This document shows, one piece after another, positions 6,207 to 33,900 of a DNA stretch of 64,000 nt. Both the position numbers and the translations under genes were made by a program. Origin of the DNA: Terriglobia bacterium (GTDB lineage Bacteria; Acidobacteriota; Terriglobia; Terriglobales; Acidobacteriaceae); contig JAIQGE010000001.1 in assembly GCA_020072815.1 (NCBI GenBank), positions 248,001-312,000 of the forward strand, read 5' to 3'. The notes below the pieces were generated by a model. The model made no database searches. It saw nothing but the letters and a program-made list of their open reading frames with translations, and was not told the DNA's origin. Each line of letters starts with the position of its first letter. Position 1 is the first letter of the stretch.

Positions 6207-6251
6207 AAAAGGCGATCACGGTTTATCCTCCTTATGAGGAACTTCAACCGA

Positions 6252-8081: not shown

Positions 8082-8103
8082 GTCGCGGAAGGAGGTTGCG
8101 AAC

Positions 8104-8607
8104 TTAGTGGGCTGATGAAGGACTCCCCGGCGATTTTTTTGATTTTGTAGCAGCCGGCGCAGGCGTCATGTCGTTGCGCAGTTTCCGCACCAAGAGGCCG
8201 GCCAACCCCTTGGTGGACTTTTTGCATTTGGTGTTGGCGGTCCAGAGAATGGCGCCGTCAGAATTGGCGGTGATTTGGACCACGGCGCCGCAAATCTCGG
8301 CTTCAGGCACCAAGCGGGCCTGGATCCAGAGAGTTATTTCGGCCTGCGCGCAGTCTTCCATGACCTGGAACCGGCCCCAGGCCTGAAGTTCCTTACGGGC
8401 TTCGGCCACGTCGGCGTCTGGCGCGCTCCGGACTTTGATGCACATGGACTTGGCGGAAAGAAGACGCTCGGGAAGCGGAGCTTTCGCCTGCTTGGACGCC
8501 TGCCCAGGTTTTTCAGCCGGCTTCTTGGCCTTGGCGTTGGCGCTATTTTGGTCGGGCGAGCCAGACAGCGCCCCCATCAGCACCAAAAATAGGAAAATTG
8601 ATTTCAT
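8104..8607 (-). CDS. Small secreted hypothetical protein
   Basis: A protein of about 167 residues with an N-terminal signal peptide (MKSIFLFLVLMGALSGS), which fixes the start at 8607 in preference to an ORF extension to 8643. A Lys/Ala/Pro-rich linker follows, then a compact domain of about 100 residues with three cysteines (CIKVRS, EDCAQ, EICGAV and another at TKCKK) and alternating strands such as EITLWIQARLV. The C-terminus is Lys/Ser/Pro-rich and disordered. I do not recognise the family. It converges on the peptidase gene at 6252-8081 with a 22-bp gap. Probably periplasmic or surface-exposed, by the signal peptide only. Confidence 0.7.
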   Translation of the reverse strand: MKSIFLFLVLMGALSGSPDQNSANAKAKKPAEKPGQASKQAKAPLPERLLSAKSMCIKVRSAPDADVAEARKELQAWGRFQVMEDCAQAEITLWIQARLVPEAEICGAVVQITANSDGAILWTANTKCKKSTKGLAGLLVRKLRNDMTPAPAATKSKKSPGSPSSAH

Positions 8608-8859
8608 ATGGCAGTATTTTAGCCGGGTAACCATTCTCGTCAATTCGCGGAAGTAATCAGCGGCAGTTGACTTCGTAAATAAGAGTCGGCATAATGCGGT
8701 TACACGGGAAAGGAGGGCGATCCAAAAAATATGAAAAATTCTGATAGTAGTGGTTTACGTGAGGTGGCTGAGGCTTAAGGCGTGAGTCTTTAAGTCCTGG
8801 CGAGTTGTGGATCGCGTAAGGCCTCCGCGCCTTCAGCCAATCCCAACAGTCAACCGGCG

Positions 8860-8893
8860 AACCCCGCAGATCTTTGCGGGGTTTGCTCTTTTT
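8860..8893 (+). terminator. Rho-independent terminator-like hairpin 1
   Basis: AACCCCGCA pairs with TGCGGGGTT across a short loop, followed by a T-rich run (GCTCTTTTT). No annotated gene lies upstream on this strand, so it must belong to a leader or small RNA. Confidence 0.7.
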
Positions 8894-8902
8894 AGGCAAA
8901 TA

Positions 8903-8926
8903 TATCGGGCCCGTCCCGATTTTTTT
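8903..8926 (+). terminator. Rho-independent terminator-like hairpin 2, abutting a start codon
   Basis: ATCGGG-CCCGT-CCCGAT followed by seven T residues. The T run ends immediately before the ATG at 8927, so this hairpin occupies the place of the ribosome binding site of the MFS gene. Confidence 0.6.
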
Positions 8927-10138
8927 ATGCCCAACCCGCCAATATCGCTGGACACGCGCCGCAACATTGTCATCTTCGGCTCGGTGTCGTTCTTTACCGA
9001 TACCGCCAGTGAAATGGCGTACTGGATTCTGCCGGCGTTTCTCACTTCGCTGGGCGCTGGTCCGGCCGCTCTGGGGCTGATTGAAGGCATCGCGGAAAGC
9101 GTGGCGGCGCTGGGCAAGCTGTTCTCCGGCTATCTGACGGACGTTGTTCCGCGCCGCAAGCCGCTGGTGGTTTTTGGTTACGTGCTGGCGAATGCCGTTA
9201 AACCATTGTTGGCCGTAAGCACCCAATGGTGGCATGTTCTGCTGATCCGCTTTACTGACCGCACGGCCAAAGGCATCCGCGGCACACCACGCGACGTGCT
9301 GGCGGCCGAGTCGGTGGACCGCAAGCAAGTCGGCAGCGCCTATGGCTTGTTGCAATCCATGGACTCAGCCGGAGCCATAGCCGGGCCGCTCATCGCCTGG
9401 CTGGTTCTCTCGCGCCTGGGCGGAATGCGCACGGTCTTCTGGATCGCCGCGATTCCGGGGCTCGTCGCCATGCTCGTGGTGCTCTTTGTGCGTGAGCCCA
9501 AGCGCGCCGCGGTTGAGCAAGGGCCTTCTCCTCCGTTTTGGCGGGCGGCCCATCTGCCTTTTCGCTTCTATTACATGCTGGCAGCGGTCCTGATCTTTTC
9601 GCTGGGAAACTCCAGCGACATGTTTCTGGTCCTGCGCGCACAGCAAATCGGCATAAGACCCGGGCTGGCGCCGTTGCTGGGCCTGACTTTCAACGTAACC
9701 TACACCCTTGGGTCCTGGCCGGCGGGCTGGCTCAGCGACCGCCGTTCCAAACCGGTGATTGCCGGTCTGGGGTACCTGGTCTTCGCGGCGACGTATTTCA
9801 CGTTTGCAGCCGCCCCGGGCAAGGCCGCGGTCTGGGGCATGATGGCGCTCTATGGAATGTACTATGCGCTGACCAGTCCGGTGCTGCGCGCGATGGTGGT
9901 GGAAACGGTGGCTCCGGAAGCGCGTGGCCGTGCCTTTGGACTGTTCTATTTCACCACCAGCGTGAGCACGCTTCTCTCCAGCCTGATCACCGGTGAATTG
10001 TGGAAACACTACGGAGCAGCTCTGCCATTTTTGCTCTCTGCATCGCTTGCGGTGATGGCTGCGGTGATGTTGCTGGCCGTCAGGAAGGCCCCCGAACGAC
10101 GGCAAGATGCATTTCTTGGTCCAGTTGTTCAGAGCTGA
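8927..10138 (+). CDS. Major facilitator superfamily transporter
   Basis: Twelve-helix inner-membrane carrier of about 403 residues, probably a proton-coupled exporter. The N-terminal half shows MFS signatures: FFTDTASEMAYWILPAF in helix 1 and GYLTDVVPRRKPLVVFGY in the loop between helices 2 and 3, then LIRFTDRTAKGIRGTPRD. The second half repeats the pattern (GWLSDRRSKPVIAGLGYLV). The ATG at 8927 is the first codon giving a normal cytoplasmic N-terminus, but it has no Shine-Dalgarno: the bases before it form a terminator-like hairpin with its T-tract. Alternative starts further in would cut into helix 1. Substrate unknown. It resembles the group of soil-bacterial MFS permeases annotated only at superfamily level. 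Confidence 0.88.
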   Translation: MPNPPISLDTRRNIVIFGSVSFFTDTASEMAYWILPAFLTSLGAGPAALGLIEGIAESVAALGKLFSGYLTDVVPRRKPLVVFGYVLANAVKPLLAVSTQWWHVLLIRFTDRTAKGIRGTPRDVLAAESVDRKQVGSAYGLLQSMDSAGAIAGPLIAWLVLSRLGGMRTVFWIAAIPGLVAMLVVLFVREPKRAAVEQGPSPPFWRAAHLPFRFYYMLAAVLIFSLGNSSDMFLVLRAQQIGIRPGLAPLLGLTFNVTYTLGSWPAGWLSDRRSKPVIAGLGYLVFAATYFTFAAAPGKAAVWGMMALYGMYYALTSPVLRAMVVETVAPEARGRAFGLFYFTTSVSTLLSSLITGELWKHYGAALPFLLSASLAVMAAVMLLAVRKAPERRQDAFLGPVVQS

Positions 10139-21767: not shown

Positions 21768-21821
21768 TTCGTGAATGGGTCAATAGTAGCGCAAACAACA
21801 GCAAGGGCCTCAGAGTGTGGT

Positions 21822-21949
21822 AGTGGGTCAGTTTGATAAGGGTTCATCGCTGGCGCGATGAACGTCTGCCTAAAGGCCCGCGATTCACAAGCGAATCGCT
21901 AGACGCTGATACAGGCGAGTGGGTCAGTTTTCAAATAAACTGACCCACT
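21822..21949. mobile_element. MITE-like 128-bp element with 13-bp terminal inverted repeats
   Basis: It begins with AGTGGGTCAGTTT (21822-21834) and ends with the exact complement AAACTGACCCACT (21937-21949). A third copy of the 13-mer at 21918-21930 makes a terminal hairpin. Inside are hairpins GTTCATCG/CGATGAAC and a three-way junction closed by CGTCT/AGACG, holding GCCTaaAGGC and GCGATTC/GAATCGC. No ORF and no obvious target-site duplication. Probably a non-autonomous element or a structured RNA. Confidence 0.5.
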
Positions 21950-21988
21950 GCCCAGCCCCGCTGGTATTGCTTGAAGCAATGCCTGGCA

Positions 21989-22513
21989 TCAAGTGCGCGG
22001 CGGGAAAATGCCCTGGAGCGCGATGATGAAAGTCAGGCAGAGATACGGCATCATGTTGTTGTGCGGCAGATTGCCGCCGGCGATGGAGGTGGCAGCCGGG
22101 GTCATGGAAACGTTGCTGGGCGAAGAAGGCGAATAGACGCTGCCGAAGCCTTTTGCTCCCGAGGCCCAGACGTTGTTGGTGGGATCGGCCAAGCCGGTCC
22201 CGGCAGCGGCCTGGACACCGTGCGCGTGCGCGGGCATTTCGGTTTGCAGCAAAGTGACGTTCTGTTCGCCGCCGACCTCACCCAGGTCGCGCAAGCTCAG
22301 GCCCGGCCCCTGGCCTTGCTGCATGGGTGCCGTGCCCTGGAGGTTGGGCAGAGCAAAGTTGCTCTTGCCGTCGCCGCCATAGGTGGTGCCCAGAAGCGAG
22401 AACAAGGCCGTGTTCTGGCTGATGGGCATGAGCTGGCCGTTGCACAAAGCCCAGCCGGTGGGAGCAAAGTTTCCTGCGAAAATCCTGATTTCAGCTACAA
22501 ATTGATTTGACAT
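21989..22513 (-). CDS. Tail-collar domain protein (MdpB-like), paralogue 3
   Basis: A 174-residue protein made of one phage tail-collar domain, the family called microcystin-dependent protein (MdpB) in bacteria. Its N-terminus FVAEIRIFAGNFAPTGWALCNGQLMPIS matches the two sister proteins upstream, followed by LLGTTYGGDG and FALPNLQG. The middle (VTLLQTEMPAHAHGVQ) is typical, while residues 105-140 are variable. The C-terminus NNMMPYLCLTFIIALQGIFPPRT closes the fold. It is the last gene of a same-strand run: giant protein, then three collar genes with gaps of 42, 39 and 19 bp. AAAGGATT precedes the ATG. Such domains form trimeric fibre bases in phage; their role in bacteria is not settled. Confidence 0.9.
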   Translation of the reverse strand: MSNQFVAEIRIFAGNFAPTGWALCNGQLMPISQNTALFSLLGTTYGGDGKSNFALPNLQGTAPMQQGQGPGLSLRDLGEVGGEQNVTLLQTEMPAHAHGVQAAAGTGLADPTNNVWASGAKGFGSVYSPSSPSNVSMTPAATSIAGGNLPHNNMMPYLCLTFIIALQGIFPPRT

Positions 22514-22532
22514 GGCAATCCTTTCTCCCTTG

Positions 22533-23033
22533 CTAGTTCTGGCTGGGGAAAATCCCCTGCAGCGCGATGATGAAATTCAGCACCAGGTACGGCGACATAT
22601 TCTCATGCGGCTGGCTGCCTCCCGTGGGCAGGATGCACGCAGGATTCATCGCGACCGTGGGCGTGGGGGCAAACGGTTTGGCATTGTTCGCCGACCACAA
22701 GTTTCCCGCAGCGCTGGGCGAGGTAGGCGGATTGGTGTTGCTGCCCACCGGCGCGTGGCTATGAGCAGGCAGCTCGGAAATGTTGAGGGTATGCGCGGTT
22801 TCACCGCCGAGTTCGCCCAGGGTAATGCCCCCGCCCGTGTGGACCGGCATGCGGCCCTGCAGGTTGGGAAGGGCAAAGTTGACCCGGCCGTCGCCGCCGT
22901 AGGTGGTTCCCAGGATGGAAAACAAAGCCTGGTTCTGATTGATAGGCAGCAATTGCCCGTTGCAGAAGGCCCAGCCCTTGGGAGGGAAATTCCAACTGAT
23001 GACTTTCACTTCGCCCAGATATGGCTCTGACAT
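22533..23033 (-). CDS. Tail-collar domain protein (MdpB-like), paralogue 2
   Basis: A 166-residue paralogue of its neighbours. It has the shared core (YLGEVKVISWNFPPKGWAFCNGQLLPIN, ILGTTYGGDGRVNFALPNLQG, LNISELPAHSHAPVG) and the same tail, NMSPYLVLNFIIALQGIFPSQN. The loop at about residues 100-140 is Pro/Thr/Asn-rich and differs from both sisters. A strong GAGGAGAAGAAC site precedes the ATG. No signal peptide is visible, so if it is exported it must use another route, as with phage fibres. Confidence 0.9.
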   Translation of the reverse strand: MSEPYLGEVKVISWNFPPKGWAFCNGQLLPINQNQALFSILGTTYGGDGRVNFALPNLQGRMPVHTGGGITLGELGGETAHTLNISELPAHSHAPVGSNTNPPTSPSAAGNLWSANNAKPFAPTPTVAMNPACILPTGGSQPHENMSPYLVLNFIIALQGIFPSQN

Positions 23034-23072
23034 GTTCTTCTCCTCTAGCTCTTAAGCTTGGTGGTAAACGGC

Positions 23073-23579
23073 TTACACCTGCGACGGAAAGATCCCAAAC
23101 AACGAGAGAATAAAGTTGATGGCCAGGAAAGGCACCATATTGTCGTGCGGTTGCGAACCGCCGGACGGGCCCATGGCTCCCGGGTCCATGGTCAAGGTGG
23201 GGGCAACGTTGGAGTACTGGTTCAAGCTGGGACTGGTAGAGGCCCATACGTTGTTTTGCGGGCCGACCTGTGTTCCCGCCGCGGCATTGGCCTGGGGCAC
23301 GTGGGAATGCGCGGGAATCTGGCTGGTGGTCAAGGTGACGGTTTCCACACCGCCGCTCTGCCCCAGAGCAAAGCCCGGTCCAACGTGGACGGGGATGCGG
23401 CTGCGCAGGTCAGGCAGGGCAAAGGTGTTGACTCCATCGCCGCCATACGTGGTGCCAATCAGGTTGAAGAGGGCATCGTTCTCTGAGATGGGAATGAGGG
23501 ACCCATCGCAGAACGCCCAGCCTGCAGGGGCGAAGTTTCCGCCAAACATCCGGATTTCGCCGATAAACGGACTTGACAT
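23073..23579 (-). CDS. Tail-collar domain protein (MdpB-like), paralogue 1
   Basis: A 168-residue tail-collar protein, the first of three. The core is FIGEIRMFGGNFAPAGWAFCDGSLIPIS, LIGTTYGGDGVNTFALPDLRSRIPVHVG and VTLTTSQIPAHSHVPQ, ending NMVPFLAINFILSLFGIFPSQV. It differs from paralogue 2 mostly in residues 95-140, the variable loop region. AGGAGCAG precedes the ATG. It begins 42 bp after the stop of the giant repeat protein, so a shared transcript is likely. Confidence 0.9.
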   Translation of the reverse strand: MSSPFIGEIRMFGGNFAPAGWAFCDGSLIPISENDALFNLIGTTYGGDGVNTFALPDLRSRIPVHVGPGFALGQSGGVETVTLTTSQIPAHSHVPQANAAAGTQVGPQNNVWASTSPSLNQYSNVAPTLTMDPGAMGPSGGSQPHDNMVPFLAINFILSLFGIFPSQV

Positions 23580-23621
23580 GTTTTTCTGCTCCTATCGGTA
23601 CTTCAGTCTGCCGCGTGCCGA

Positions 23622-26600
23622 CTACTGCACGGTCAGCGTAATGTTGGTGTTGGCCTGCACGGTCGGCGTGACCGCGGTTACGGTTATCTGGTAGGTCCCT
23701 GCGGGAGTGACGATTCCATGCGGACCGCCGCCACAACCCGCCAACACGATGAGGAACGCCATTACAGCAAAGATCGCCAAGCCGCGCAGCGCCCGCCGCC
23801 TGTCCTTCTTTGCGCCCAGAGTCACAAAGGCAAATCCCATGGCCGGGAGCAGCAAGGAGTAGAACGGGGCCGTGGGTCGCCAGGGCGTGTTCCTGCTCTG
23901 GACCACGATGCCGGACGACCGTCCCGAGGTGGTGATGGTCATGGTCACCAGGGTGGTGCTCGCGATGGTTCCCGCTGGATTGAACATGCACGCCGCGCCG
24001 ACGGGCAGTCCGGCGCAGGTGAAGCCCACCGTACCCAAAGTGGGATCGTCGTCAGTTACATCAAAGCCAATCGTGCCCGATGCCCCAGCCGGAAGAGCCA
24101 TGGTGGTGCCCGCATGTGGGTTGATGATGATCGGCGGTCCCAGGCTGATGGAATCGGTGGCTGTGTTGTTGCCGGTATTGGTTTCGCCGCCGCCGGAGAC
24201 TGTGGCGGTGTTGGTGAAGTTGTTCCGGATGTTGATGGGAATATTCACGGTCAGCGAGATGGCCGGGTAGCTGGCGCCCGGCGCCAAAACGTCAGAGCGC
24301 GTACAGGTCAGGGTGCCCAGGGTGCAAGTCCATCCCGTGCCGCTGATGGCCGTCGGCACAGGCGGGTTAGTGATGGCGGGTAGCGTGTCCACGACCGTCA
24401 CGGTGCCTACGGTCGGTCCAGCGCCGGAGTTCGTGACCGTGATGGTCCAGACGGCCCCGGTTTGTCCGCGGGTAAACGTGCCGGTGTGGGTCTTGGTGAT
24501 AGTGAGATCAGCCGGCTGTACCGTGAGGGTTGCCGTCGCCGTGTTGCCGGTGCCGCCGTTCGTGGAACTCACGGCGCCGCTGGTGTTGACGAAGCTTCCC
24601 GTCGCACTGGCGGTCACATTCACTGCAAGCGCGCAAGTGCTGGCCGCAGCCACGGTGCCTCCGGTCAGCGAGACGCTGCCCGAGCCCGCGGTGGCCGTTG
24701 CCGTCCCGCCGCAGGTGTTGGTCAGCCCATTCGGCGTGGCCACAACCATGCCTGCCGGCAGAGTATCGGTAAACGCTACACCCGCCTCAGCCACGGTGTT
24801 GGCGGCTGGGTTGGTGATGGTGAAGGTCAAGGTGGAAACGCCGTTGACGGCAATAGCCGTGGGGTTGAATGCCTTGGCGATAGATGGAGGCGCTACCACA
24901 GCGATGCTGGCGGAAGCAGTACCGCCGGTGCCGCCCTCAACGGAGGTCACGTTGCCGGTGGTGTTGTTCTTGGTCCCTGCCGTTGTGCCGGTCACATTCA
25001 CGCTGAAAGTGCATGACGTGCTGGCGGCCAGCGTTGCTCCGGTCAGGCTGATGACGCTGGTGGCCTGCGTGGCGGTGATGGTCCCGCCACCGCAAGAGCC
25101 GGTCAGACCGTTGGGCGTGGCGACCACCAGGCCCGCGGGCAGAGTGTCACTGAAGCCTACGCCGGTCAATGAACTGGTGGTGTTGTTGTTCTGAATGGTG
25201 AAGGTCAGGCTGGTGGAGCCGTTCAGCGGAATGCTGGCCGCGCCGAAGGCCTTGATGATGACCGGCGGTGAAGTCACGGTGATGCTGGCGTTGGACGTGT
25301 TACCCGGGCCGCTTTCCGTGGCTGTGACCTGGACGCTGTTGTTCTTCACGCCGCCCGTGGTGCCGGTCACGTTGACGCTGAGCGTGCAAGACGCGCTGGA
25401 CGCCAGAGTGCCGCCGGACAAGCTGACAGAACCCGAGCCCGCGACTGCGGTAGCTGTGCCGCCGCAGGTGCTGGTCAACGCGTTGGGCGTCGCCACTACC
25501 ATGCCGGCAGGAAGATTGTCAGTAAACGCGACCCCGGTCAGCGTGGTGCCGGTGTTGGGGTTGTTAATGGTGAAGCTCAGCGACGTGGTCCCGTTCAGCG
25601 GAATGCTGGCTGCGCCAAACGACTTGGTGATGGTCGGCGGCGTGGCTACGGTCAGAGTTGCCGTCGCCGTGTTACCGGTCCCACCGTTGGTGGAGCTCAC
25701 AGCGCCGGAGGTGTTGACGAACGTCCCAGCGGCGGTACCCGTGATGTTCACGGTGACCGTGCAATTGCTGCTGGCAGCGATGGTGCCGCCGGTGAGCGAG
25801 ATGCTGGTTGATCCGGCGACCGCCGTGGCTGTGCCGCCGCAAGTGTTGGTCAAGCCGTTGGGCGTGGCCACTACCAGGCCGGTGGGCAGCGTGTCGGTGA
25901 ACGCGACTCCAGCCTCAGCAACTGCGTTGGCCGCAGGATTGGTGATGGTGAAGGTCAATGACGTGGTGCCGTTCAGCGGAATTCCGGTGGCGCCGAAGGC
26001 CTTGGCGATGGACGGCGGCGCTACCACGTTGATGCTGGCTGAGGCCGTTCCGCCGGTGCCGCCTTCCGTGGAAGTGACGTTGCCGGTGGTGTTGTTCTGC
26101 GTGCCCGCCGCCGTGCCGGTCACATTGACGGAGAAGGTGCACGACGTGCTTTGCGCCAGCGTTGCTCCGGTCAAGCTGATGACGTTGGTCGCCTGCGTGG
26201 CGGTAATGGTCCCGCCGCCGCAAGAGCCGGTCAGACCGTTGGGCGTGGAGACGACCAGGCCTGCGGGCAGCGTGTCGCTAAAGCCGACGCCAGTGAGTGT
26301 AGTCGTGGTGTTGTTGTTCTGAATGGTGAAGGTCAGGCTGGTGGAGCCGTTCAGCGGAATGCTGGCCGCGCCGAATGCCTTGATGATCACCGGCGGTCCC
26401 GCCACGGTGATGGAAGCGTTGGACGTATTTCCCGTTCCGCCTTCCGTGGATGTCACCTGGACGCTGTTGTTCTTGATGCCCGCCGTGACGCCGGTAACGT
26501 TCACTGAGACCGTGCACGACGCGCTGGAGGCCAGAGTCCCGCCGGAGAGGCTGATGCTGCCCGAGCCCGCTACCGCAGTGGCTGTGCCGCCGCAAGTGTT

Positions 26601-29600
26601 GTTGAGCGCGTTGGGCGTGGCCACGACCAGGCCAGCTGGCAGATTGTCAGTAAACGCTACCCCGGTCAGCGCCAGGCCGGTGTTCGGATTATTGATGGTG
26701 AAGGTCAGCGAAGTTGAACCGTTCAACGGAATGCTGGCCGCGCCAAAGGCCTTGGTGATGGTCGGCGGCGTAGCGACTGTCAGGTTGGCGGTAGCCGTGT
26801 TGCCGGTGCCGCCATTGGTGGAGGTCACCGCGCCGCTGGTGTTGGTGTACTGTCCTGACGCCGTGCCGGTAATGTTCACCACCACGGTGCAGTTCGCGTT
26901 GACGGCGATGGTGCCGCCGGTGAGCGAGATGCTGGTTGAACTGGCGACCGCGGTGGCAGTGCCGCCGCAAGTGTTGCTCAAGCCGTTAGGCGTGGCCACG
27001 ACCAGGCCGGTGGGCAGCGTATCAGTGAACGCGACTCCGGTTTCGGCAACCGCATTGGCCGCAGGGTTAGTGATGGTGAAGGTCAGCGAGGTGGTGCCGT
27101 TCAGCGGAATCGTCGTCGCGCCAAAGGCCTTGGCGATGGACGGAGGCGCTACCACGTTGATGCTGGCCGAGGCCGTTCCGCCGGTGCCGCCTTCCGTGGA
27201 AGTGACGTTGCCGGTGGTGTTGTTCTGCGTGCCGGCAGCCGTGCCGGTCACGTTGACCGAGAACGTGCATGAAGTGCTCGCTGCCAGAGTTGCTCCGGTC
27301 AAGCTGATGACGTTGGTCCCCTGCGTGGCGGTGATCGTCCCGCCACCGCAAGAGCCGGTCAGGCCGTTGGGCGTGGAGACCACCAGGCCCGCGGGCAACG
27401 TGTCACTGAAGCCGACGCCGGTGAGCGAAACCGTGGTGTTGTTGTTCTGGATGGTGAAGGTCAGGCTGGTGGAGCCGTTCAGCGGAATGCTGGCCGCGCC
27501 AAAAGCTTTGATGATCACCGGCGGAGCCACCACCGTGATGGAAGCGTTGGACGTGTTCCCGGTTCCAGCGTTGGTGGAGCTGACCTGAACGCTGTTGTTC
27601 TTCACTCCAGCGGTGGTGCCGGTCACGTTCAAAGAGACGGTGCAGCTTGCGCCGGGAGCCAGGCTGGCGCCCGACAAGCTGACGGAAGAAGATCCGTCCA
27701 CTGCCGTGGCCGTGCCGCTGCAAGTGCTGGTCAAATTGCTGGGCGTGGCGACGACCAAGCCTGCAGGCAAGTTGTCAGTAAAAGCGACGCCGTTCAACGT
27801 CAAATTCGCGTTCGTGCTGCTGAGCGTGAAAGTCAGGCTGGTGGAGCCGTTCAGCGGAATGGTCGCGGCGCCGAAAGCTTTGGTGATGGTCGGCGGATTG
27901 ATGACCGTGAGGCTGGCGGAAGATGTAGATTGCGCGCCGGTGCCGGCCGCCGTGGAATTGATGGTGACGCTGTTGTTGTAGACGCTATCAACCGCGCTGG
28001 ATACGTTCACCGTGATGGTGCAGGAGCCCACAGGCAACGCCGCGTTGGAGAAGCTTACGCTGCCCGCGCCGGCGACGGCCGTAAACGTGCCGCCGCAGGT
28101 GTTGGTGGCGCCGGGTGTGGCCGCAACCACCAGGTTGGCTGGGAAAGTATCGGTAAAGCTGGCGTCCACGGCGATCACGTTCGGATTGTTGACGGCGAAG
28201 CTGAGCGTGCTGGAAACACCCACCGCAACCGTGGTGGGGTTGAAGCTCTTGGTGATCTGCAGCGGCTCAAGAATGATGATGTTGGCGGTAACCGTGGCCT
28301 GGTCAACGGTGGCGTCGGCGTGCCCGTTGCCGCTGGTCCCGCCCGCATTGAAAGTGGCCGTGGCCGTGGGCACGGGGTTGCCTAGAGTTTCCGGCTGGGC
28401 TTGAGGAATGGTTCCCAGAATTGGATTGTTGAAAGTGATCGGCAGACCGACGATAACATCCAGATTTCCAGCCAGGGCTGTACCGACGCCATGATTGTCT
28501 TTGCTCATGTCGCCGGTGAGCGTGGTGCTCTGGTTGATGCGAATGGTACTCGGCGAGGCGGTGTGCGTCAGTACGATGAACGGATCAAACGTGGTGACGC
28601 CGCTGTTGATCGTATTGATAGTCGCGGCCGGAGTATTGGTGCCCCACCAGTTGTTGGTCACGGTGGCGGTGGAGTGGTTATTGTTCAGGTTCTTGGCAGT
28701 CGCCGCGGTATTGCCAGCCAGGCGGCTGAAGCTCATGGTAAAGGCGTGCGCCAGTGTTGGCTCGCCAGAATCAATGCCGCCACCATTGCCGGTAGCGGTG
28801 TTGCCGGTGATGGTGACCTTGGTCAGCGTCATCACGTCCGGGCTGACCGCGTGGTAGTGGATGCCGCCGCCGTTTCCGCCGGCGGTGTTGCCGGAGATGA
28901 CGGTAAGGCTGGCCGGGGAACCGCCGTTGTCAATCAAGAGGTTCGAAGTGTCCCAAATTCCGCCGCCGTCACCGGACGCGTTGTTGCCGGTGATGGTGTT
29001 GCTATGGAGTACAGTTTGTCTTGAATTGGCGCCAGCAGAAAAGATAAAGAGCCCGCCGCCAACGCCGCGGCCTGTGCCGTTGATCTGGTTGGCGTTGTTG
29101 TTGATGATCTGGCTGTTGCTCAGAGACATCCGAGCAAGATCAGCCACCCAGATACCGCCGCCGCTGCCGGCTGCATTTGTGTTAACTTCCGCTACTGAGC
29201 CGTTCTGGAAAATACTGTTGGTAATGGTTGCCAATCCGGGGCCGCCGGTTGCGCCGGAAGAAGCATTGAAGATCGCAATTCCAGCACCGTTGCCATCGGT
29301 GGTACTGCAGTCGCTGAATGTTACGTTTGTCAGCGTCAGGTTGGCAGTCCCGGCGCCACCGGTGTCGAACTCCATGCAGCCGCCATCGCCGTCAAAGCCG
29401 GCAACGCTTCCGCGGTTCCTGCCAAATTGCAGAGTGAGGTTGGAGATGCTGGCGCTGGCATTTGTAAGCACAGCTATGTCTTCGTTGACAGCCAGCAACA
29501 TGTCAACGCCGTTGGTATTGGTTGTGCCTGCACGAATGATCGTTGTGCCCTGACCTGCGCCGACGATGTTGACCGAGTCCAGAACTTCCAAGGTTCCCGA

Positions 29601-31223
29601 TTTGCCGTCGTATGTGACGGGGCTGGGTCTGGCGAGAGAGAGCGTATAAGTGCCCGCCGCGATGGTAATGGTGTCCGTGCCGGCGGTGGCGTTGGCCTTG
29701 AGGATGGCTTCACGCACGCTGCAAGACGAAGACACATCTACATTGCTGACGTTATTGCAGGTGGTGGCAACGGTTCCAGGTATTGGATCGTCGGTGCGAT
29801 TGACGAAGAACGTTGGATCGGGCAGCGGCATCATCACGGCCGGAGCGAGCTGGCCGGCGTGCAACGCGACGACGCCGGGGCGTCCGTCAATATTGGTGCG
29901 CATGGGCAGCGCCGCTACGGGCGAGCCGGCATACGGCCGCGTGGAAATCTGTGCGGGAAGAAAAGTGGTGGCGCCGGCCGCCACGTCAGGATGCGAGATC
30001 ACGGCCATCTGTCCCATGGAGGGGTTGAGCACCATCACATCGTCAGCGCCGTGATCAGAGATGCGCGTGCGGAACAGGACCGGAGGCTGTCCGGGCGTAA
30101 AGGGCGCGGCCGAGGCAATGCTCTCCACGATCCTGAAACCGTTCATGGGAAGAGTGCGCGGCGGGTCCAGCGGATTGCCATACCCGCGCCGCCCGGCCTG
30201 CAGGCGCGCCTGATGCTCTTGCGCGGTGAGCGGGCGAGGATCAAATTCAGTGTGCGCGGCAATGTGCAGGCTGCCGTCCGAGGTCAGCAGAGCGATCTGC
30301 AATCCGCCGGTGCGGTCAAAAATAAACGAGCCCAGGGCCATGGCGCTGGCGTTCACGGGCAGAGAGAGAGCTTCGATCTGGAAATTCGAAGAATGAAGAA
30401 TGAAGGCGTTGCCGCCGGAGAGAAAAGCCGCGTCGGTATGGGAATCGCCAAAGTCGCCAAATACGATGTTGCTGGCGGCGGCGTCCAGGGCAAAGGCGGA
30501 CAGCGGTCCCAAACCTTTTTCAGAACCGGAGAAGATCTGCAAAGAAGAACTCTGCGGAGTAGAGACGCCGACGACCAGATTGGAGTAAGGCTGTCCACGT
30601 ACCAGGTTTTCAGACGCCATGGCGGTGACGCCGCCGGTGAGCGCGAGGGTTTGCGGGGCGCCGAAGTTGCCGCGTCCGTCGCCGGGGAAAACGTACAAGT
30701 TGCTGCCGCCGAGGGAAGCTACCACCAGGTCCTGTTGTCCGCCGGGCGTGAAGCTGCCCAGCGCCATGAAATCAGGCCGGACGGGAATGCTGACGATCTG
30801 GGTGTCAGGCAAAAACGGCGCGGGAAACTGCCCGCGGCCGATGGCCAGGAACGAAGCGTTGCTCTGCGGAGCGAAAGCGTCCACGTTGCCGCGATGAATG
30901 ACGATGGCTCCGCCGCCGGGCGCGCTGAAGCCGGCGATCATGTCAGCCACGCCGTCTCCATCCACGTCCGCCGTGGCCATGGAGAGGGGTTGCGCCTGTC
31001 CCGCAGCGACGCTCTGGGCAAGGCTCGGCCCAACCGGCTTCACCGGAGCGGCCTGGTTGTCTCCCAGCCAGATCTTGGGGCCGGGCGCAGGAGTGGTCTG
31101 CAGAGGAGCGGCGCTCACACTCATTCCCGTTAAGGGAAAACCAGCCGCCAAAAACACCAGGCTCAAGATTACGCAACAAACAGCAAAAGAAAGGACGAAG
31201 GCAGGCAGAGTCCGTCTAGTCAA
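23622..31223 (-). CDS. Giant secreted repeat protein (FG-GAP, CSLREA beta-helix, DUF11-like repeats)
   Basis: A 2533-residue exported protein starting with TTG at 31223, with GAGGAGTT about nine bases upstream. A signal peptide covers residues 1-38. FG-GAP/VCBS-like propeller repeats (DVDGDGVADMI) span about 80-480. A CSLREA motif (SSCSVREAILKANA, about 495) opens a parallel beta-helix with Pmp-like repeats (NGGGIHYH, GDGGGIWD) to about 880. Then eleven Ig-like repeats of about 125 residues, related to DUF11-type surface repeats, run from about 989 to 2366; repeats 2-10 form three exact 376-residue super-units. The C-terminus has two hydrophobic helices around KKDRRRALRG, then VLAGCGGG and a short beta-strand tail. 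It is probably a surface adhesin or stalk protein; the function is inferred. Confidence 0.88.
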   Translation of the reverse strand: MTRRTLPAFVLSFAVCCVILSLVFLAAGFPLTGMSVSAAPLQTTPAPGPKIWLGDNQAAPVKPVGPSLAQSVAAGQAQPLSMATADVDGDGVADMIAGFSAPGGGAIVIHRGNVDAFAPQSNASFLAIGRGQFPAPFLPDTQIVSIPVRPDFMALGSFTPGGQQDLVVASLGGSNLYVFPGDGRGNFGAPQTLALTGGVTAMASENLVRGQPYSNLVVGVSTPQSSSLQIFSGSEKGLGPLSAFALDAAASNIVFGDFGDSHTDAAFLSGGNAFILHSSNFQIEALSLPVNASAMALGSFIFDRTGGLQIALLTSDGSLHIAAHTEFDPRPLTAQEHQARLQAGRRGYGNPLDPPRTLPMNGFRIVESIASAAPFTPGQPPVLFRTRISDHGADDVMVLNPSMGQMAVISHPDVAAGATTFLPAQISTRPYAGSPVAALPMRTNIDGRPGVVALHAGQLAPAVMMPLPDPTFFVNRTDDPIPGTVATTCNNVSNVDVSSSCSVREAILKANATAGTDTITIAAGTYTLSLARPSPVTYDGKSGTLEVLDSVNIVGAGQGTTIIRAGTTNTNGVDMLLAVNEDIAVLTNASASISNLTLQFGRNRGSVAGFDGDGGCMEFDTGGAGTANLTLTNVTFSDCSTTDGNGAGIAIFNASSGATGGPGLATITNSIFQNGSVAEVNTNAAGSGGGIWVADLARMSLSNSQIINNNANQINGTGRGVGGGLFIFSAGANSRQTVLHSNTITGNNASGDGGGIWDTSNLLIDNGGSPASLTVISGNTAGGNGGGIHYHAVSPDVMTLTKVTITGNTATGNGGGIDSGEPTLAHAFTMSFSRLAGNTAATAKNLNNNHSTATVTNNWWGTNTPAATINTINSGVTTFDPFIVLTHTASPSTIRINQSTTLTGDMSKDNHGVGTALAGNLDVIVGLPITFNNPILGTIPQAQPETLGNPVPTATATFNAGGTSGNGHADATVDQATVTANIIILEPLQITKSFNPTTVAVGVSSTLSFAVNNPNVIAVDASFTDTFPANLVVAATPGATNTCGGTFTAVAGAGSVSFSNAALPVGSCTITVNVSSAVDSVYNNSVTINSTAAGTGAQSTSSASLTVINPPTITKAFGAATIPLNGSTSLTFTLSSTNANLTLNGVAFTDNLPAGLVVATPSNLTSTCSGTATAVDGSSSVSLSGASLAPGASCTVSLNVTGTTAGVKNNSVQVSSTNAGTGNTSNASITVVAPPVIIKAFGAASIPLNGSTSLTFTIQNNNTTVSLTGVGFSDTLPAGLVVSTPNGLTGSCGGGTITATQGTNVISLTGATLAASTSCTFSVNVTGTAAGTQNNTTGNVTSTEGGTGGTASASINVVAPPSIAKAFGATTIPLNGTTSLTFTITNPAANAVAETGVAFTDTLPTGLVVATPNGLSNTCGGTATAVASSTSISLTGGTIAVNANCTVVVNITGTASGQYTNTSGAVTSTNGGTGNTATANLTVATPPTITKAFGAASIPLNGSTSLTFTINNPNTGLALTGVAFTDNLPAGLVVATPNALNNTCGGTATAVAGSGSISLSGGTLASSASCTVSVNVTGVTAGIKNNSVQVTSTEGGTGNTSNASITVAGPPVIIKAFGAASIPLNGSTSLTFTIQNNNTTTTLTGVGFSDTLPAGLVVSTPNGLTGSCGGGTITATQATNVISLTGATLAQSTSCTFSVNVTGTAAGTQNNTTGNVTSTEGGTGGTASASINVVAPPSIAKAFGATGIPLNGTTSLTFTITNPAANAVAEAGVAFTDTLPTGLVVATPNGLTNTCGGTATAVAGSTSISLTGGTIAASSNCTVTVNITGTAAGTFVNTSGAVSSTNGGTGNTATATLTVATPPTITKSFGAASIPLNGTTSLSFTINNPNTGTTLTGVAFTDNLPAGMVVATPNALTSTCGGTATAVAGSGSVSLSGGTLASSASCTLSVNVTGTTGGVKNNSVQVTATESGPGNTSNASITVTSPPVIIKAFGAASIPLNGSTSLTFTIQNNNTTSSLTGVGFSDTLPAGLVVATPNGLTGSCGGGTITATQATSVISLTGATLAASTSCTFSVNVTGTTAGTKNNTTGNVTSVEGGTGGTASASIAVVAPPSIAKAFNPTAIAVNGVSTLTFTITNPAANTVAEAGVAFTDTLPAGMVVATPNGLTNTCGGTATATAGSGSVSLTGGTVAAASTCALAVNVTASATGSFVNTSGAVSSTNGGTGNTATATLTVQPADLTITKTHTGTFTRGQTGAVWTITVTNSGAGPTVGTVTVVDTLPAITNPPVPTAISGTGWTCTLGTLTCTRSDVLAPGASYPAISLTVNIPINIRNNFTNTATVSGGGETNTGNNTATDSISLGPPIIINPHAGTTMALPAGASGTIGFDVTDDDPTLGTVGFTCAGLPVGAACMFNPAGTIASTTLVTMTITTSGRSSGIVVQSRNTPWRPTAPFYSLLLPAMGFAFVTLGAKKDRRRALRGLAIFAVMAFLIVLAGCGGGPHGIVTPAGTYQITVTAVTPTVQANTNITLTVQ
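24507..27887 (-). repeat. Higher-order tandem repeat, 3 x 1128 bp
   Basis: Three copies of a three-domain unit (types A-B-C, 376 codons). Matching anchors lie exactly 1128 bp apart: type A at 27880, 26752, 25624; type B at 27508, 26380, 25252; type C at 27130, 26002, 24874. Type B domains share IIKAFGAASIPLNGS and type C share the IAKAF start. Confidence 0.95.
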
Positions 31224-31782
31224 GCAGGTAACTCCTCTAAATCTGATTCACTCCGGGAGCCGGGGAACGTCATGCAAAACGCATTGGAAACGACATTGAG
31301 GTTCCTTCCCGGAGGTCAAAGGAGTCTTTCTGTCATCTTCCAAGAATCGTGTCTTGCACGGTTATTGGGGGCGGGGGACCGAGACAACTGATGTGTCAGT
31401 TATGTACTTTGCGTCCGGTACATTCTTTTTGTCAAGGTCAAAGGCCTGGAATAAGTTACTACCGTATTTTTGTACCTCCAGAATCACTAACGACCAGCTT
31501 GATTCGCTCTCCAGGGCTTGCGGCGTGGTGCGATCTTGGGCCGCTAAGAAGTCACGTGCACGGCAAAACATTTCACCAAGAAACGTGGGGACCGTGGGAA
31601 GCGGCCGTCTCAGGGTGAGAAGCCCTTAAAAAGACGTTCGCGGACGCAAATTTTGTGACAAAAGTCACCTTCCCTTTGGTCACAAGTCCTGTTAGAAATA
31701 ACTTAAGAAAGTCCAGGTTTCCCGATTTGGGAATTTTCGGTCCCCCCCAAGAGCAGTTTCATCAAGACATAGAGGTGAAGCC
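31224..31782. promoter_or_regulatory. 559-bp divergent regulatory gap
   Basis: No convincing ORF. It contains hairpins AACTGAtgtgTCAGTT and TGTAC...GTACA (about 31386-31422), an inverted pair of CGGACGCAAA (minus strand near 31408-31417 and plus strand 31642-31651), and a CRP/FNR-like site near the plus-strand gene. The giant gene would have a long 5' leader if transcribed from the right half. Confidence 0.5.
31653..31669. promoter_or_regulatory. CRP/FNR-like operator
   Basis: TTGTGACAAAAGTCACC fits TGTGA-N6-TCAC(A); a further GGTCACAAG half-site follows at 31678. It lies about 115 bp before the plus-strand gene and 430 bp before the giant gene. Motif match only. Confidence 0.45.
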
Positions 31783-32547
31783 TTGTCAGTTTCTCGACGG
31801 ATCTTTCTTTGGAAAAGCGCATTAACAGCCGCGGCTTGCGCCGCAATCCCGCTGGAAGGGATCGGACAGCGCCGGACAATTCCCGGGGAAACCGTCCCCG
31901 GACAAGCCCCTGCGCAAACTCCTGCACAGCAGGGTGGTACGGTCACGGGTGATCCGTATGCTGCCCTGGCTGGTCTGGACCGCGATCTGTTCACCAGCGC
32001 CGTGGGCTCAAATTTCAAGGTTGCTTTGCCCGGCGCATCGCCGGTCTGGCTGCAACTTCTTGCAGTGAGCGACTTGCCCGGCCCGCCCGCGCCCGACCCC
32101 AAGACTTTTGTGACGCGGAACAAGTTGGTTCCCGTCGTCGGCACCACGGGTTTCATGCTGCGGTTCGCGACGACGTCGCCTGACCCCTTGCCGCAAGATA
32201 CTTACACCTTCAACCATGCCACGCTGGGCGAATTTGTGATGTTCATCGTGCCAGAAGGTTCGAGCAAGGGAGAGTTCAGCGCGGTGGTCAACCGCTTGAA
32301 CGCGCCGATGCCCGTGGCTGTACCGGTGCGGGTGGTGAGTCCGGCGGTGAGTCCTTCCGTGTCGGTGAATTCGCCGGCTATGGGCACGAATCCCGGCTCG
32401 GCACCAGGACAGGCTTCAGGACAGGCTTCAGGACAGGCTATGGCGCCAGCGATGGCTGCCCCCGCGTCCACTTCATCAGATAGTGGAAGCCCTTCTCTTC
32501 AGCAGGTTGGAACCCGAGGCGGAAGAAAAGCCGCAGAGAAGGATTGA
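31783..32547 (+). CDS. Tat-type exported protein with DUF6916-like domain
   Basis: A 254-residue protein starting with TTG at 31783, preceded by GAGGTGAAG. The N-terminus SRRIFLWKSALTAAACAA fits a twin-arginine (Tat) signal. Residues 65-165 form a small beta-rich domain (LFTSAVGSNFKVALPG, WLQLLAV, FMLRFAT, TYTFNHATLGEFVMFIVPEG) that I assign to the DUF6916 family. The rest is low-complexity, with GQASGQASGQAM repeats and a basic end. A domain paralogue without signal is at 32947-33270. Its last 110 bp overlap the 3' end of the GNAT gene on the other strand. It is divergent from the giant protein and shares its control gap. Confidence 0.75.
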   Translation: MSVSRRIFLWKSALTAAACAAIPLEGIGQRRTIPGETVPGQAPAQTPAQQGGTVTGDPYAALAGLDRDLFTSAVGSNFKVALPGASPVWLQLLAVSDLPGPPAPDPKTFVTRNKLVPVVGTTGFMLRFATTSPDPLPQDTYTFNHATLGEFVMFIVPEGSSKGEFSAVVNRLNAPMPVAVPVRVVSPAVSPSVSVNSPAMGTNPGSAPGQASGQASGQAMAPAMAAPASTSSDSGSPSLQQVGTRGGRKAAEKD

Positions 32548-32950
32548 AGTTCTCGACGTAGATGGTGACTGGCAGGGCTTTGCTGGAAGCATCGTTCTGG
32601 ATGCGGCCGAGCATCGCTGAGCCAATCCCTGTATTGCGACGCTCCGGCGAAACTGTAATGTCCAGAATGTGAAGGGCGTCCGCGTTGCGCGCCAGATAGA
32701 GCCTGCCCACCGGCGAGTCATCCAACAAAATAAGATCATGCTGCGCGTGCGGGAACTCCGCCGCGTAGTGCTGTTTCTGCGCGGTGAACTGCATGCGCAG
32801 AAAGGCTTCTTTCTGCTCCGGCGTCCAGGGAACGCGCGTCATCTCTTCCGCGCGCGTGCTGGCATAGACGGAGTAAAGAAACGCGTCGTCGGCGACGGCG
32901 ACGGGCCGCAGCGTGATGCGCGAAGACAGAGCGCCTGCGTCCTGGATCAT
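32438..32950 (-). CDS. GNAT-family N-acetyltransferase
   Basis: Acetyl-CoA-dependent N-acetyltransferase of 170 residues, substrate unknown. The fold is complete: ITLRPVAVADDAFLYSVYASTR (strand 1/helix 1), LILLDDSPVGRLYLAR, the acetyl-CoA loop ITVSPERRNTGIGSAML (RxxGxG/A type) and the C-terminal YVENFNPSLRLFFRLGFQPAEE. The ATG overlaps the stop of the DUF6916-like gene upstream by 4 bp (ATGA), so the two are translationally coupled. It converges on and overlaps the Tat-type DUF6916-like gene. The pairing with a DUF6916 protein suggests it acts within the surface module, which is an inference. Confidence 0.9.
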   Translation of the reverse strand: MIQDAGALSSRITLRPVAVADDAFLYSVYASTRAEEMTRVPWTPEQKEAFLRMQFTAQKQHYAAEFPHAQHDLILLDDSPVGRLYLARNADALHILDITVSPERRNTGIGSAMLGRIQNDASSKALPVTIYVENFNPSLRLFFRLGFQPAEEKGFHYLMKWTRGQPSLAP

Positions 32951-33270
32951 GGCTGGGCTTTGTTCCGGTTCAGCCGGTGGAACACCGATTCATACTGCGT
33001 GCCGTTCTGGTCCGCGCCCACGGGCGTCAGGAAAATTTGGAACGCGCCCAGCTTCTCATGCTCCAGGCTGTGGATGTGCTGCGCCAGCCGTGGCGAATTG
33101 GGCCCTTGGAAGATCAGCGAAAACAATTCAACCGGAGGCCCGCTGGAACGCTCATTCACTTCAATGAGCTCAACCATCAGCGGCTCGGAATGGCCGATGT
33201 GGACTTTGAAAGAGGTGTTCAACTGCTCGCGAAAAACCTTGGCGTTGAGGCGGTCAAGATTGTCGGCCAT
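32947..33270 (-). CDS. Cytoplasmic DUF6916-like protein
   Basis: A 107-residue protein consisting only of the small beta-rich domain also present in the Tat-type protein at 31783: REQLNTSFKVHIGHSEPLMVELIEV, LFSLIFQGPNSPRL, SLEHEKLGAFQIFLTPVG. It has no signal peptide. It is the first gene of a two-gene operon with the GNAT. Function unknown. The paralogy to the exported protein is by eye and moderate in strength. Confidence 0.75.
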   Translation of the reverse strand: MADNLDRLNAKVFREQLNTSFKVHIGHSEPLMVELIEVNERSSGPPVELFSLIFQGPNSPRLAQHIHSLEHEKLGAFQIFLTPVGADQNGTQYESVFHRLNRNKAQP

Positions 33271-33411
33271 GGATGGGAATATTTATAACACGGACATTCG
33301 TAACATCAAGGGCTGAGATGACCAAACACCAACGCAGGCCGCACCGCCAACGTTTCGGAGAGCACCGGGCCATCGCGCTCATCGCTCGACGACGGCCCGG
33401 CTGTCGCTTCC

Positions 33412-33900
33412 TTACTGCTTGCGGGTGTATTGAAATGCATCGTGCATCACGTCTTTACCATCTTTGCGGAAAGACCATTGCTCGGAGAAATGGTCTTTGT
33501 CCTGGATGGTGAGCACCATCTTGTGCATGTGACCGTCGCTGGGGCTGGCCAGGTTGGTGGCGTCCAGAAAATTGAAAGTGATGGTCTTGCCGTCCGCTGA
33601 AACCTCGGCTTGCATGCGTGGCTGGTTGTGCGCGGCGCAGTAGTGGGTCATCAGCAAGCGGTCATTGTCGAGGTGATAGATGGTGACCATGCTGTCATGC
33701 GGAATCTCCTCCATCAGGGCGGAACCTTCCGAGATCAGCCGCAAGGTAATCTGCATGGGCTTGCCGTCAGGCCCTTTGCCTTCCCAGGTCCCGGCCAGGC
33801 CCTTGAGCGAATCAAATCCTGACGCGGCGTTGGACGCGCTCCACATGGGAATGGAAAACGCAAAGAGCACTGCCAGGGCGATTAACGAACGAACTTTCAT
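33412..33900 (-). CDS. Secreted lipocalin-like hypothetical protein
   Basis: A 162-residue protein starting at ATG 33900, where MKVRSLIALAVLFAFSIPMWSAS forms a signal peptide. The mature part is predicted beta-barrel: LKGLAGTWEGKGPDGKPMQITLRLIS, then MVTIYHLDNDRLLMTHYC and KMVLTIQDKDHFSEQWSF. This is similar in style to small secreted lipocalin-like or DUF1579-like proteins that bind hydrophobic ligands, but no ligand can be deduced. The frame extends to 33993 through a repetitive GCGCGGCAAT-rich stretch that is unlikely to be coding. Confidence 0.75.
   Translation of the reverse strand: MKVRSLIALAVLFAFSIPMWSASNAASGFDSLKGLAGTWEGKGPDGKPMQITLRLISEGSALMEEIPHDSMVTIYHLDNDRLLMTHYCAAHNQPRMQAEVSADGKTITFNFLDATNLASPSDGHMHKMVLTIQDKDHFSEQWSFRKDGKDVMHDAFQYTRKQ

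Follow-up and report, generated by a model that had tools for sequence, protein, structure and literature searches.

Gene organization of the locus

We analyzed a stretch of 64,000 nucleotides from a Terriglobia bacterium (the window), in which seven adjacent genes had been proposed to form one module. Their Pfam families are Collar (three genes), DUF6916 (two genes), GNAT, and DUF7933/DUF11 in the gene for a giant protein (Table 1). Each of the seven genes is an open reading frame located at the coordinates given in the preliminary description of this DNA, and the gene order and the gaps of 42, 39 and 19 bp at the collar genes were confirmed in the sequence. The Tat-type gene is indeed divergent from the giant gene, 559 bp apart, and the 4-bp overlap of the short DUF6916 gene and the GNAT gene was reproduced. 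The Tat-type and GNAT genes, which lie on opposite strands, also share 110 bp at their 3' ends (32438-32547), a feature absent from that description. A simple scan of positions 21800-33500 found no sigma-70 sites. The hairpin behind the last collar gene is single-copy in the genome, with up to 3 mismatches allowed.

Table 1. Features of the locus (window coordinates)
Feature	Position	Strand	Basis or remark
Perfect hairpin, 30 nt, just 3' of the last collar gene	21919..21948	-	Possible transcription end
Collar protein, class 3 of the trio, 174 aa	21989..22513	-	ORF, Pfam, class profiles
Collar protein, class 1 of the trio, 166 aa	22533..23033	-	ORF, Pfam, class profiles
Collar protein, class 2 of the trio, 168 aa	23073..23579	-	ORF, Pfam, class profiles
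Giant secreted protein, 2533 aa, TTG start	23622..31223	-	ORF, Pfam
Divergent intergenic region between giant and Tat-type genes, 559 bp	31224..31782		Control region by position only
Tat-signal DUF6916 protein, 254 aa, TTG start	31783..32547	+	Proposed export partner
GNAT N-acetyltransferase, 170 aa, module-tied subfamily	32438..32950	-	
Short DUF6916 protein without signal, 107 aa	32947..33270	-	

The collar trio

The three collar proteins of the window score 99.7, 91.0 and 96.3 bits against a Pfam Collar cut-off of 24. An H-x-H motif, a predicted metal site, is present in 258/258 collars from trio loci, and in 255 of them it stands in a P-x-H-x-H type context. The collars fall into three orthologous classes, and 83 of the 86 trio loci have one of each (79-84 in four random restarts of the class assignment). 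For 74, 72 and 83 of the 86 collars at trio positions 1, 2 and 3, respectively, the nearest neighbour in another locus occupied the same position. This suggests that the trio collars form a hetero-trimer. Divergent trios follow the rule less strictly: one of each class was found in 15/22 short Hymenobacter loci and in 8/16 longer Hymenobacter loci with exactly three collars, where the genomes of the two sets overlap and the class profiles were trained mostly on other lineages. The trio of Sinorhizobium meliloti has, by score, one class 1 collar and two of class 3. Single-collar versions of the locus also exist, indicating that a hetero-trimer is dispensable in some versions. An AF2 model of a lone collar chain had no fold and was unusable (pLDDT 52, pTM 0.22), which is expected for an interlocked trimer and is at most a weak hint of one. 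The N-termini are conserved as M-[A/S/D]-x-P. In classes 1, 2 and 3, position 2 is A, S or T in 92% (of 73 collars), 96% (of 85) and 74% (of 70), respectively, after 30 of the 258 collars without a recognisable start were dropped.

NCBI labels these genes 'tail fiber protein', and the available part of PMC4221894 calls three collar genes of Caulobacter K31 a phage region. Both would fit a prophage remnant, that is, tail genes of a decayed phage with coincidental neighbours. Against this, the same genes occur across phyla with three conserved classes, and GNAT and DUF6916 were found in 0/7 loci with other weak collars (33-84 bits), which are phage-type by appearance. The recurrence, together with the absence of GNAT and DUF6916 from the phage records searched, led us to reject a prophage origin, and we give the remnant almost no credence. 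Homology of the collars to phage tail fibres would also suit a released antibacterial or tailocin-like particle, with the collars as receptor-binding tips and the giant as toxin or delivery protein. However, the GNAT and DUF6916 proteins had no match in 50,697 phage records, and phage collars are distant (the best was 40% identical among the matches listed, and all 146 records were below 60%). Furthermore, the six small proteins had no PADLOC match and a Pfam scan of the window's giant found no toxin domain, so that such a particle is quite improbable. The same PADLOC scan of the six small proteins led us to reject an anti-phage defence system.

The GNAT and DUF6916 proteins

The GNAT gene matches PF00583 with 33.5 bits (cut-off 20.7), and its product belongs to a subfamily tied to the module. 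It contains the sequence RNTGIG, corresponding to R-x-x-G-x-G/A, which we take to be the acetyl-CoA loop motif of the GNAT family. An acyltransferase gene is a nearly constant part of the module. GNAT may be a modifying enzyme, as had been proposed. The two DUF6916 matches in the window score 86.5 and 50.6 bits. The short DUF6916 protein was modelled as all-beta (pLDDT 92), and a fold search in PDB and BFVD found no match to a known fold at E <= 0.001; a likeness to chagasin was rejected, with E = 0.19 only. GNAT and DUF6916 genes lie on opposite strands in 33/71 adjacent pairs, indicating that they are not one operon everywhere.

The giant protein

By eye, the giant of the window has a Sec-type signal at its N-terminus and, at its C-terminus, only a hydrophobic stretch with an LAGC box. 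Between them lie an FG-GAP-like N-terminal part and a region that has a CSVREA stretch and, by eye, a GN-rich beta-helix look, followed in Pfam by ten DUF7933 (isopeptide-type Ig) repeats and DUF11. The isopeptide triad of DUF7933 repeats, described in the available text of PMC12617251, is present in 10/10 repeats (Lys and Asp by script, Asn by eye). The protein is long and predicted to be secreted and carries tandem stalk repeats, as fibrillar adhesins do. Giants of different loci differ in sequence, and a C-terminal domain common to 42 loci was not found in the window's giant. Among those scanned, giants of other loci often end in lineage-specific surface anchors, namely Por_Secre_tail, SLH, Autotransporter, IPTL-CTERM or an OMP barrel. 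These anchor domains support the surface location suggested in the preliminary description, and the giant partner of the module is probably a surface-exposed protein.

Recurrence of the module

A giant protein is accompanied across loci by the three orthologous collar classes, a special GNAT and DUF6916. In many phyla, the collar trio is found repeatedly with GNAT, DUF6916 and a long gene next to it, as expected for one module and opposite to the rare co-occurrence that would have spoken against it. Among 49 roomy loci picked by collar similarity alone, the trio is present in 47, GNAT in 42, DUF6916 in 40 and a long same-strand neighbour in 39. Of 80 loci flanked on each side by 3 kb or more of sequence, 13 have no 1000-aa neighbour within 1 kb. 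Almost all genomes that encode DUF6916 also have a collar gene (12/13 and 29/30 in two genome samples). Per-genome co-occurrence of collar and DUF6916 gave Fisher p = 5e-13 in the window's phylum (149 genomes) and p = 1e-18 in Pseudomonadota (200 genomes), values that ignore kinship among genomes. Giant, trio, GNAT and DUF6916 are together in Ruegeria sp. TM1040 and S. meliloti LMB1; Paenibacillus sp. 37 and Deinococcus ficus have giant, trio and GNAT, and DUF6916 was not found within the stretches examined. An ABC transporter was rejected as a constant partner: a cluster of 14 ABC-type ORFs in 12 loci, found 2.0-9.1 kb away from the trio, to either side of it and on either strand, was put down to chance. 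Searches of open-access papers found no description of the cassette of collar, GNAT, DUF6916 and giant, and the term 'DUF6916' is absent from the open-access papers searched.

In Acaryochloris marina MBIC11017, the three 'phage tail collar' genes AM1_3688-3690 are listed among the 35 genes with the strongest induction in low far-red light (PMC11633204), together with the acetyltransferase AM1_3686 and the conserved hypotheticals AM1_3684 and AM1_3687; AM1_3686-3689 appear in the same low far-red light table for strain MU13. Judging from names and locus tags rather than sequences, these genes would be an example of the module and a parallel for its co-expression.

A soluble secreted matrix or symbiosis set, like rhiABC, is an unlikely reading of this neighbourhood. 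In such a set, the collars would bind glycans of plants or neighbours and the giant would be one of several partners. The collar domain of RhiB, relevant to the Rhizobium-legume interaction (available text of PMC13133039), points in this direction, as does single-collar locus L069, of the window's family, which adjoins a collagen/CBM96/CBM5_12 protein. Nevertheless, the long same-strand neighbour is found in more of the roomy loci than expected for a free partner.

Tat signals and export

The DUF6916-like protein encoded on the plus strand has a twin-arginine (RR) signal at its N-terminus (SRRIFLWKSALTAAACAAIP), and the window's genome encodes TatC (205 bits). With both present, this protein is a predicted Tat substrate. 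Within the first kb next to the trio, RR-signal ORFs start 4.8 times as often as in the background at 1-9 kb (36 starts in 184 kb compared with 50 starts in 1.23 Mb), as detected by a home-made rule at two settings with shadow frames among the matches. Only 47/97 loci have an RR-signal gene within 1.5 kb of the block; this count includes some shadow frames and does not include the RR gene of the window, since that gene is separated from the trio by the giant gene. No RR-signal gene was found near the block in six Rhizobiales-type loci (L080, L093, L094, L118, L128, L142), and in 9 of 10 Hymenobacter loci (L188-L197) the collars are signal-less and an RR half-collar is missing. Tat therefore cannot be the sole route.

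In many Hymenobacter loci, the collars themselves or a neighbouring half-collar bear Tat-type signals; the signals of class 2 collars are weakly hydrophobic. GNAT and DUF6916 were found in 0/22 longer Hymenobacter loci. A formyl transferase is present in 13/13 signal-less Hymenobacter trios examined, compared with 0/7 RR-fused loci. The idea that RR-fused loci lost GNAT because the N-terminus was taken was rejected as stated, since signal-less Hymenobacter loci also lack GNAT and have the formyl transferase instead.

The three collars, GNAT and the short DUF6916 protein have no signal peptide in the window, nor do they in most loci. This is consistent with collars and GNAT forming an intracellular maturation or chaperone complex for the giant or its glycan, without being exported themselves, and acyltransferases (GNAT or formyl transferase) also modify sugars. 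On the other hand, phage collar domains are receptor binders, Hymenobacter collars can bear RR signals, and RR-signal half-collars directly adjoin signal-less collars there. A collar protein, which may belong to such a locus, is also reported in the exoproteome of Ruegeria pomeroyi (PMC4949626). We consider a purely intracellular complex rather unlikely.

Proposed mechanism and significance

Our preferred reading, plausible though short of probable, is a dedicated cassette serving a giant cell-surface adhesin, with which a folded and possibly acylated collar trimer would cooperate after export. The signal-less collars would co-fold in the cytoplasm into a hetero-trimer resembling phage short tail fibres, with the HxH motifs of the chains binding a metal ion that pins them together. 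GNAT, or the formyl transferase in Hymenobacter, might acylate this complex, with the conserved M-[A/S/D]-x-P N-termini as possible sites, and the short DUF6916 protein might help as adaptor or chaperone. The folded complex would leave via the Tat pathway, riding on an RR-signal partner, which in the window would be the RR-DUF6916 protein. Outside the cell, it would cap or decorate the giant, whose DUF7933/DUF11 repeats would make up a cross-linked stalk; the resulting fibre would serve attachment or the building of a matrix. As far as sequences can tell, the module probably builds an adhesive cell-surface structure so far undescribed, in which we infer the fibre role.

A more far-reaching version is possible but doubtful. 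It would be a new surface organelle, in which a hetero-trimeric, metal-pinned, domesticated phage fibre tip sits on a giant isopeptide-stiffened adhesin. Its collars, of fixed orthologous classes, would be folded and acylated in the cytoplasm and exported whole by Tat on an RR-signal guide, and the system would have spread horizontally over at least eight phyla.

Genes that carry the annotation 'tail fiber protein' in bacterial genomes are readily dismissed as prophage debris. Many of those seen here belong to a coherent, widely transferred cassette of three collar classes, acyltransferase and giant, carried by plant symbionts and by soil and aquatic bacteria. If the mechanism is true, DUF6916 gains a role, hetero-trimeric fibres join the Tat cargoes, and a new adhesion or matrix system becomes directly testable in tractable strains.

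Comparison with known systems

The window's collars share the Collar domain and the HxH motif with the phage short tail fibre gp12 (PF07484), although gp12 chains match them only weakly in sequence (E 0.004-0.013). Unlike gp12, they are separate proteins of about 170 aa in three classes per locus, and module collars were found without phage context and tied to GNAT, DUF6916 and a giant. The mosaic adhesive trimer fibres of Bdellovibrio reportedly also place phage-fibre-like trimers at the bacterial surface, with a different domain make-up. In Tat hitch-hiker export, a signal-less folded partner leaves with an RR-bearing subunit, as we propose for the module; the cargo would here consist of trimers of the fibre type instead of metalloenzymes.

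Fibrillar adhesins with DUF11/CLIPPER and DUF7933 stalks (PMC12617251) share a signal and tandem isopeptide-type repeats with the giant, and relatives of the giant carry anchors typical of these adhesins; the available text of that source does not mention a collar/GNAT/DUF6916 cassette. According to the available part of PMC13133039, rhizobial rhiABC(D) differs from the module in being flanked by the quorum-sensing genes rhiI and rhiR, in having RhiA and RhiC without a Pfam domain, and in apparently having one collar gene. It resembles the module in that RhiB has a collar domain, and it is linked to the Rhizobium-legume interaction.

A recurrent gene cassette

The seven genes of the preliminary description (see table) were borne out on the window sequence in their positions, strands, gaps and overlap. 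The 64-kb window belongs to a contig of 919,626 bases, and the genome totals 5.3 Mb. With Pfam, three of the proteins are assigned to Collar, two to DUF6916 (one of these carries a twin-arginine, RR, signal) and one to GNAT; the long secreted neighbor protein (the giant) matches DUF7933 in ten stretches, along with DUF11 and an FG-GAP-like part. Beyond Pfam, NCBIfam gave only a DUF11-type repeat and sub-threshold likenesses of the GNAT to RimI and MshD. Among the matches listed, acidobacterial proteins are the closest relatives of the window collars (77% and 67% identity), which makes an acidobacterium the probable host.

Coordinates of cassette genes and associated features (window positions unless a locus is named)
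Feature	Position	Strand	Remark
Perfect inverted repeat	21919-21948		30 nt, behind the trio; one copy in genome
Collar, class 3	21989-22513	-	
Collar, class 1	22533-23033	-	
Collar, class 2	23073-23579	-	
Giant	23622-31223	-	
RR-DUF6916	31783-32547	+	
RR-DUF6916/GNAT overlap	32438-32547		110 bp, convergent genes
GNAT	32438-32950	-	
Short DUF6916	32947-33270	-	
Shared giant domain, locus L081	residues 1961-2125 of ORF 3097-9474		example of the ~145-aa domain

Pfam model searches found DUF6916 in 13, Collar in 17 and both in 12 of 149 genomes of the window's phylum, and DUF6916 in 30, Collar in 55 and both in 29 of 200 Pseudomonadota genomes; a Fisher test on this co-occurrence ignores the kinship of the genomes. 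DUF6916 without Collar was seen in genomes G132, whose DUF6916 contig is just 9.9 kb, and G306. From at least 580 relatives in a scan of genome contigs with the collar alignment alone, the best 80 loci were kept. Each of the three small families was given its own HMM, which was run on every ORF in 100 loci, made up of the window, these 80 and 19 regions of the phylum sample. Collars were matched in 97, mostly by construction, GNAT in 85 and DUF6916 in 74; the latter two counts are independent of selection for the 80, and at least 10 of the 19 phylum-sample regions were chosen through their DUF6916 matches. Of the best 80 loci, 49 extend at least 6 kb to each side; in these, the trio of collar genes is present in 47, GNAT in 42 and DUF6916 in 40. 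The genes thus recur together in the neighborhood search, as had been proposed. In 39 of these 49, an ORF of 600 aa or longer, not in every case coding for a secreted protein, is found on the same strand within 1.8 kb; GNAT, DUF6916 and a long same-strand neighbor occur jointly in 32 and are all absent in one. In 51 of the best 80 loci the block has an ORF of 1000 aa or more within 1 kb, and just 18 ORFs of this size occur elsewhere in those loci; in the other 29, a contig end is within 3 kb in 16 and not in 13. GNAT and DUF6916 genes at most 300 bp apart form 71 pairs; 38 of them share a strand and the other 33 do not. We conclude that the cassette of trio, GNAT, DUF6916 and giant is real and, as far as the open-access literature searched shows, undescribed.

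Spread and single-collar forms

Four of 56 matching plasmid records were opened. Giant, trio, a 405-aa gene, GNAT and DUF6916 lie on a Ruegeria sp. TM1040 plasmid; giant, trio, GNAT and DUF6916 on a Sinorhizobium meliloti LMB1 plasmid; giant, GNAT and trio on a Paenibacillus sp. 37 plasmid; and an 899-aa protein, trio, RR-signal substrate-binding protein and GNAT on a Deinococcus ficus plasmid. DUF6916 was not found in 18.5 kb of the Paenibacillus plasmid or in 15 kb of the Deinococcus plasmid. Plasmid annotation calls cassette genes 'tail fiber protein', 'N-acetyltransferase' and 'hypothetical protein'. In a tree of joined trios (74 loci), subject to caution over bins and paralogues, the phyla are mixed, with 28 label changes, where 6 is the minimum and shuffled labels give 40.7; we conclude that the cassette probably moved between phyla. 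The cassette is widely transferred; it occurs in the seven phyla of this tree, and Deinococcota, through the D. ficus plasmid, is the eighth.

Single-collar forms also exist. Six Pseudomonadota loci (L203, L204, L206, L207, L216, L218; L numbers denote fetched loci of relatives) have a single collar, GNAT and a giant of at least 2030 aa nearby, and five of them have DUF6916 by our own HMM. DUF4347 lies near the N-terminus of both giants scanned. The motif LEPRM[ML]FDGA was seen near the giant N-terminus in five of the six. L205 and L208 have a single collar and no giant; their sole GNAT-like gene is more distant (54-58 bits). In the window's own family, a single collar and GNAT are flanked by two long proteins in L068-L070; in L069, the sole locus scanned, the upstream protein has collagen repeats plus carbohydrate-binding modules, and NHL repeats are found in the downstream one. 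Ten loci were fetched from genomes having a collar without a Pfam DUF6916 match: two are of the module type (L216, L218), seven have other, weakly scoring collars and lack both GNAT and DUF6916, and in one the collar was not found by our model.

The giant and the acyl transferases

Fifteen hand-picked neighbor proteins were scanned with Pfam. Por_Secre_tail was found in giants of Flavobacterium and Hymenobacter, SLH in Paenibacillus, an autotransporter barrel in Ruegeria and S. meliloti, IPTL-CTERM in Delftia and an OMP barrel in Alloalcanivorax; in several of the 15, Pfam found no anchor. The stalks of anchor-bearing giants are Ig, cadherin or DUF7933. We read the giant as a probable surface protein, and a surface function of the cassette is likely. 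We hypothesize that the collars dock on the giant. A domain of ~145 aa, which was not found in the window giant, terminates the beta-helix part of giants in 42 loci of various phyla and is not covered by any Pfam best stretch in L081, L137 or L059; it is a possible docking site. The DUF7933 repeats of the window giant have Lys and Asp at isopeptide positions in 10/10 by script, and Asn by eye; the family list is that of PMC12617251.

The GNATs form a subfamily with 22-45% identity to the window GNAT over phyla (ACYLTRANSFERASE). A formyl transferase (Formyl_trans_N and _C in the one protein scanned) replaces GNAT, between trio and giant, in all 13 fetched signal-less Hymenobacter trio loci (L188-L197, L220-L222), and was found in none of seven RR-fused Hymenobacter loci and in neither of the single-collar loci L223 and L224; these counts come from one genus and are not independent. 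That an unrelated N-acyl transferase takes the place of another suggests that acylation as such matters, and acylation in the cassette is our hypothesis. Collar N-termini are conserved as M-[A/S/D]-x-P, and our guess is that this terminus is the target.

Predicted export of the collars

In most loci the collars have no signal peptide. RR-signal ORF starts number 36 in 184 kb (the first kb beside the trio) versus 50 in 1.23 Mb farther out, a 4.8-fold difference. These nearby ORFs belong to unrelated families, such as RR-DUF6916 of the window type, a Flavobacterium family and a Burkholderiales family; further ones we take, by sequence likeness, to be substrate-binding and PhoX-like proteins. An RR-type collar was matched in 43 of 81 Hymenobacter genomes, and in the best 30 Hymenobacter loci our detection rule found RR signals on 37 of 80 collars, in 20 loci. 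Other Hymenobacter loci have signal-less collars, and in six of them, five of which were chosen since the RR-type collar search had hinted at them, an RR-type half-collar protein directly adjoins. The RR is visible in five N-termini, and in L220 through alignment alone. Small proteins with a Tat signal and half a collar domain adjoin signal-less collars in L192, L221, L222, L223 and L224. Nine of the ten Hymenobacter loci L188-L197 lack the half-collar gene. The half-collar protein resembles a guide subunit with which folded partners would leave by the Tat pathway. Tat export of collars is a well-motivated prediction; RR genes went unrecognized in roughly half of the loci, which means that export must also take other routes.

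Published expression

COG4675 (microcystin-dependent protein) is a collar family. Four tables of a study on soil metaproteomes list it (PMC5579227). Table 4 of PMC11633204 gives the 35 genes with the strongest induction under low far-red light; for Acaryochloris marina MBIC11017 it includes three collar genes (AM1_3688-3690), an acetyltransferase (AM1_3686) and two conserved hypothetical genes (AM1_3684, AM1_3687). The assignment of these genes to the cassette follows gene names and locus tags. For strain MU13, the same table has AM1_3686-3689; the text of section 6 does not discuss these genes (PMC11633204).

Three collar classes

Profile clustering of 258 collars from the 86 loci having exactly three gave three classes. 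Their order is 1-2-3 in 59 loci, 2-1-3 in 22 including the window, and 3-2-1 and 2-3-1 in one each; three loci score 2-2-3. Four locus-blind starts from random labels gave one of each class in 83, 81, 79 and 84 of the 86 loci, and nearest collar neighbors in other loci agree with the classes. Support for the class 3 clade is low (0.189) in a quick collar tree, so the class reading rests on clustering. The one-of-each rule is looser outside this set: the Ruegeria, Deinococcus and Paenibacillus plasmid trios follow it, that of S. meliloti does not, and Hymenobacter loci with exactly three collars follow it in 15 of 22 short and 8 of 16 longer loci, some of which overlap. A hetero-oligomer would require that one member of each class be kept from phylum to phylum, and a hetero-trimer of collars is a well-motivated prediction; the overall reading is slightly less likely because the rule fails in part of Hymenobacter. 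Structure prediction of the collar monomer gave no usable model. H-x-H is kept in all 258 collars; in gp12, H-x-H is the metal ligand of the trimer.
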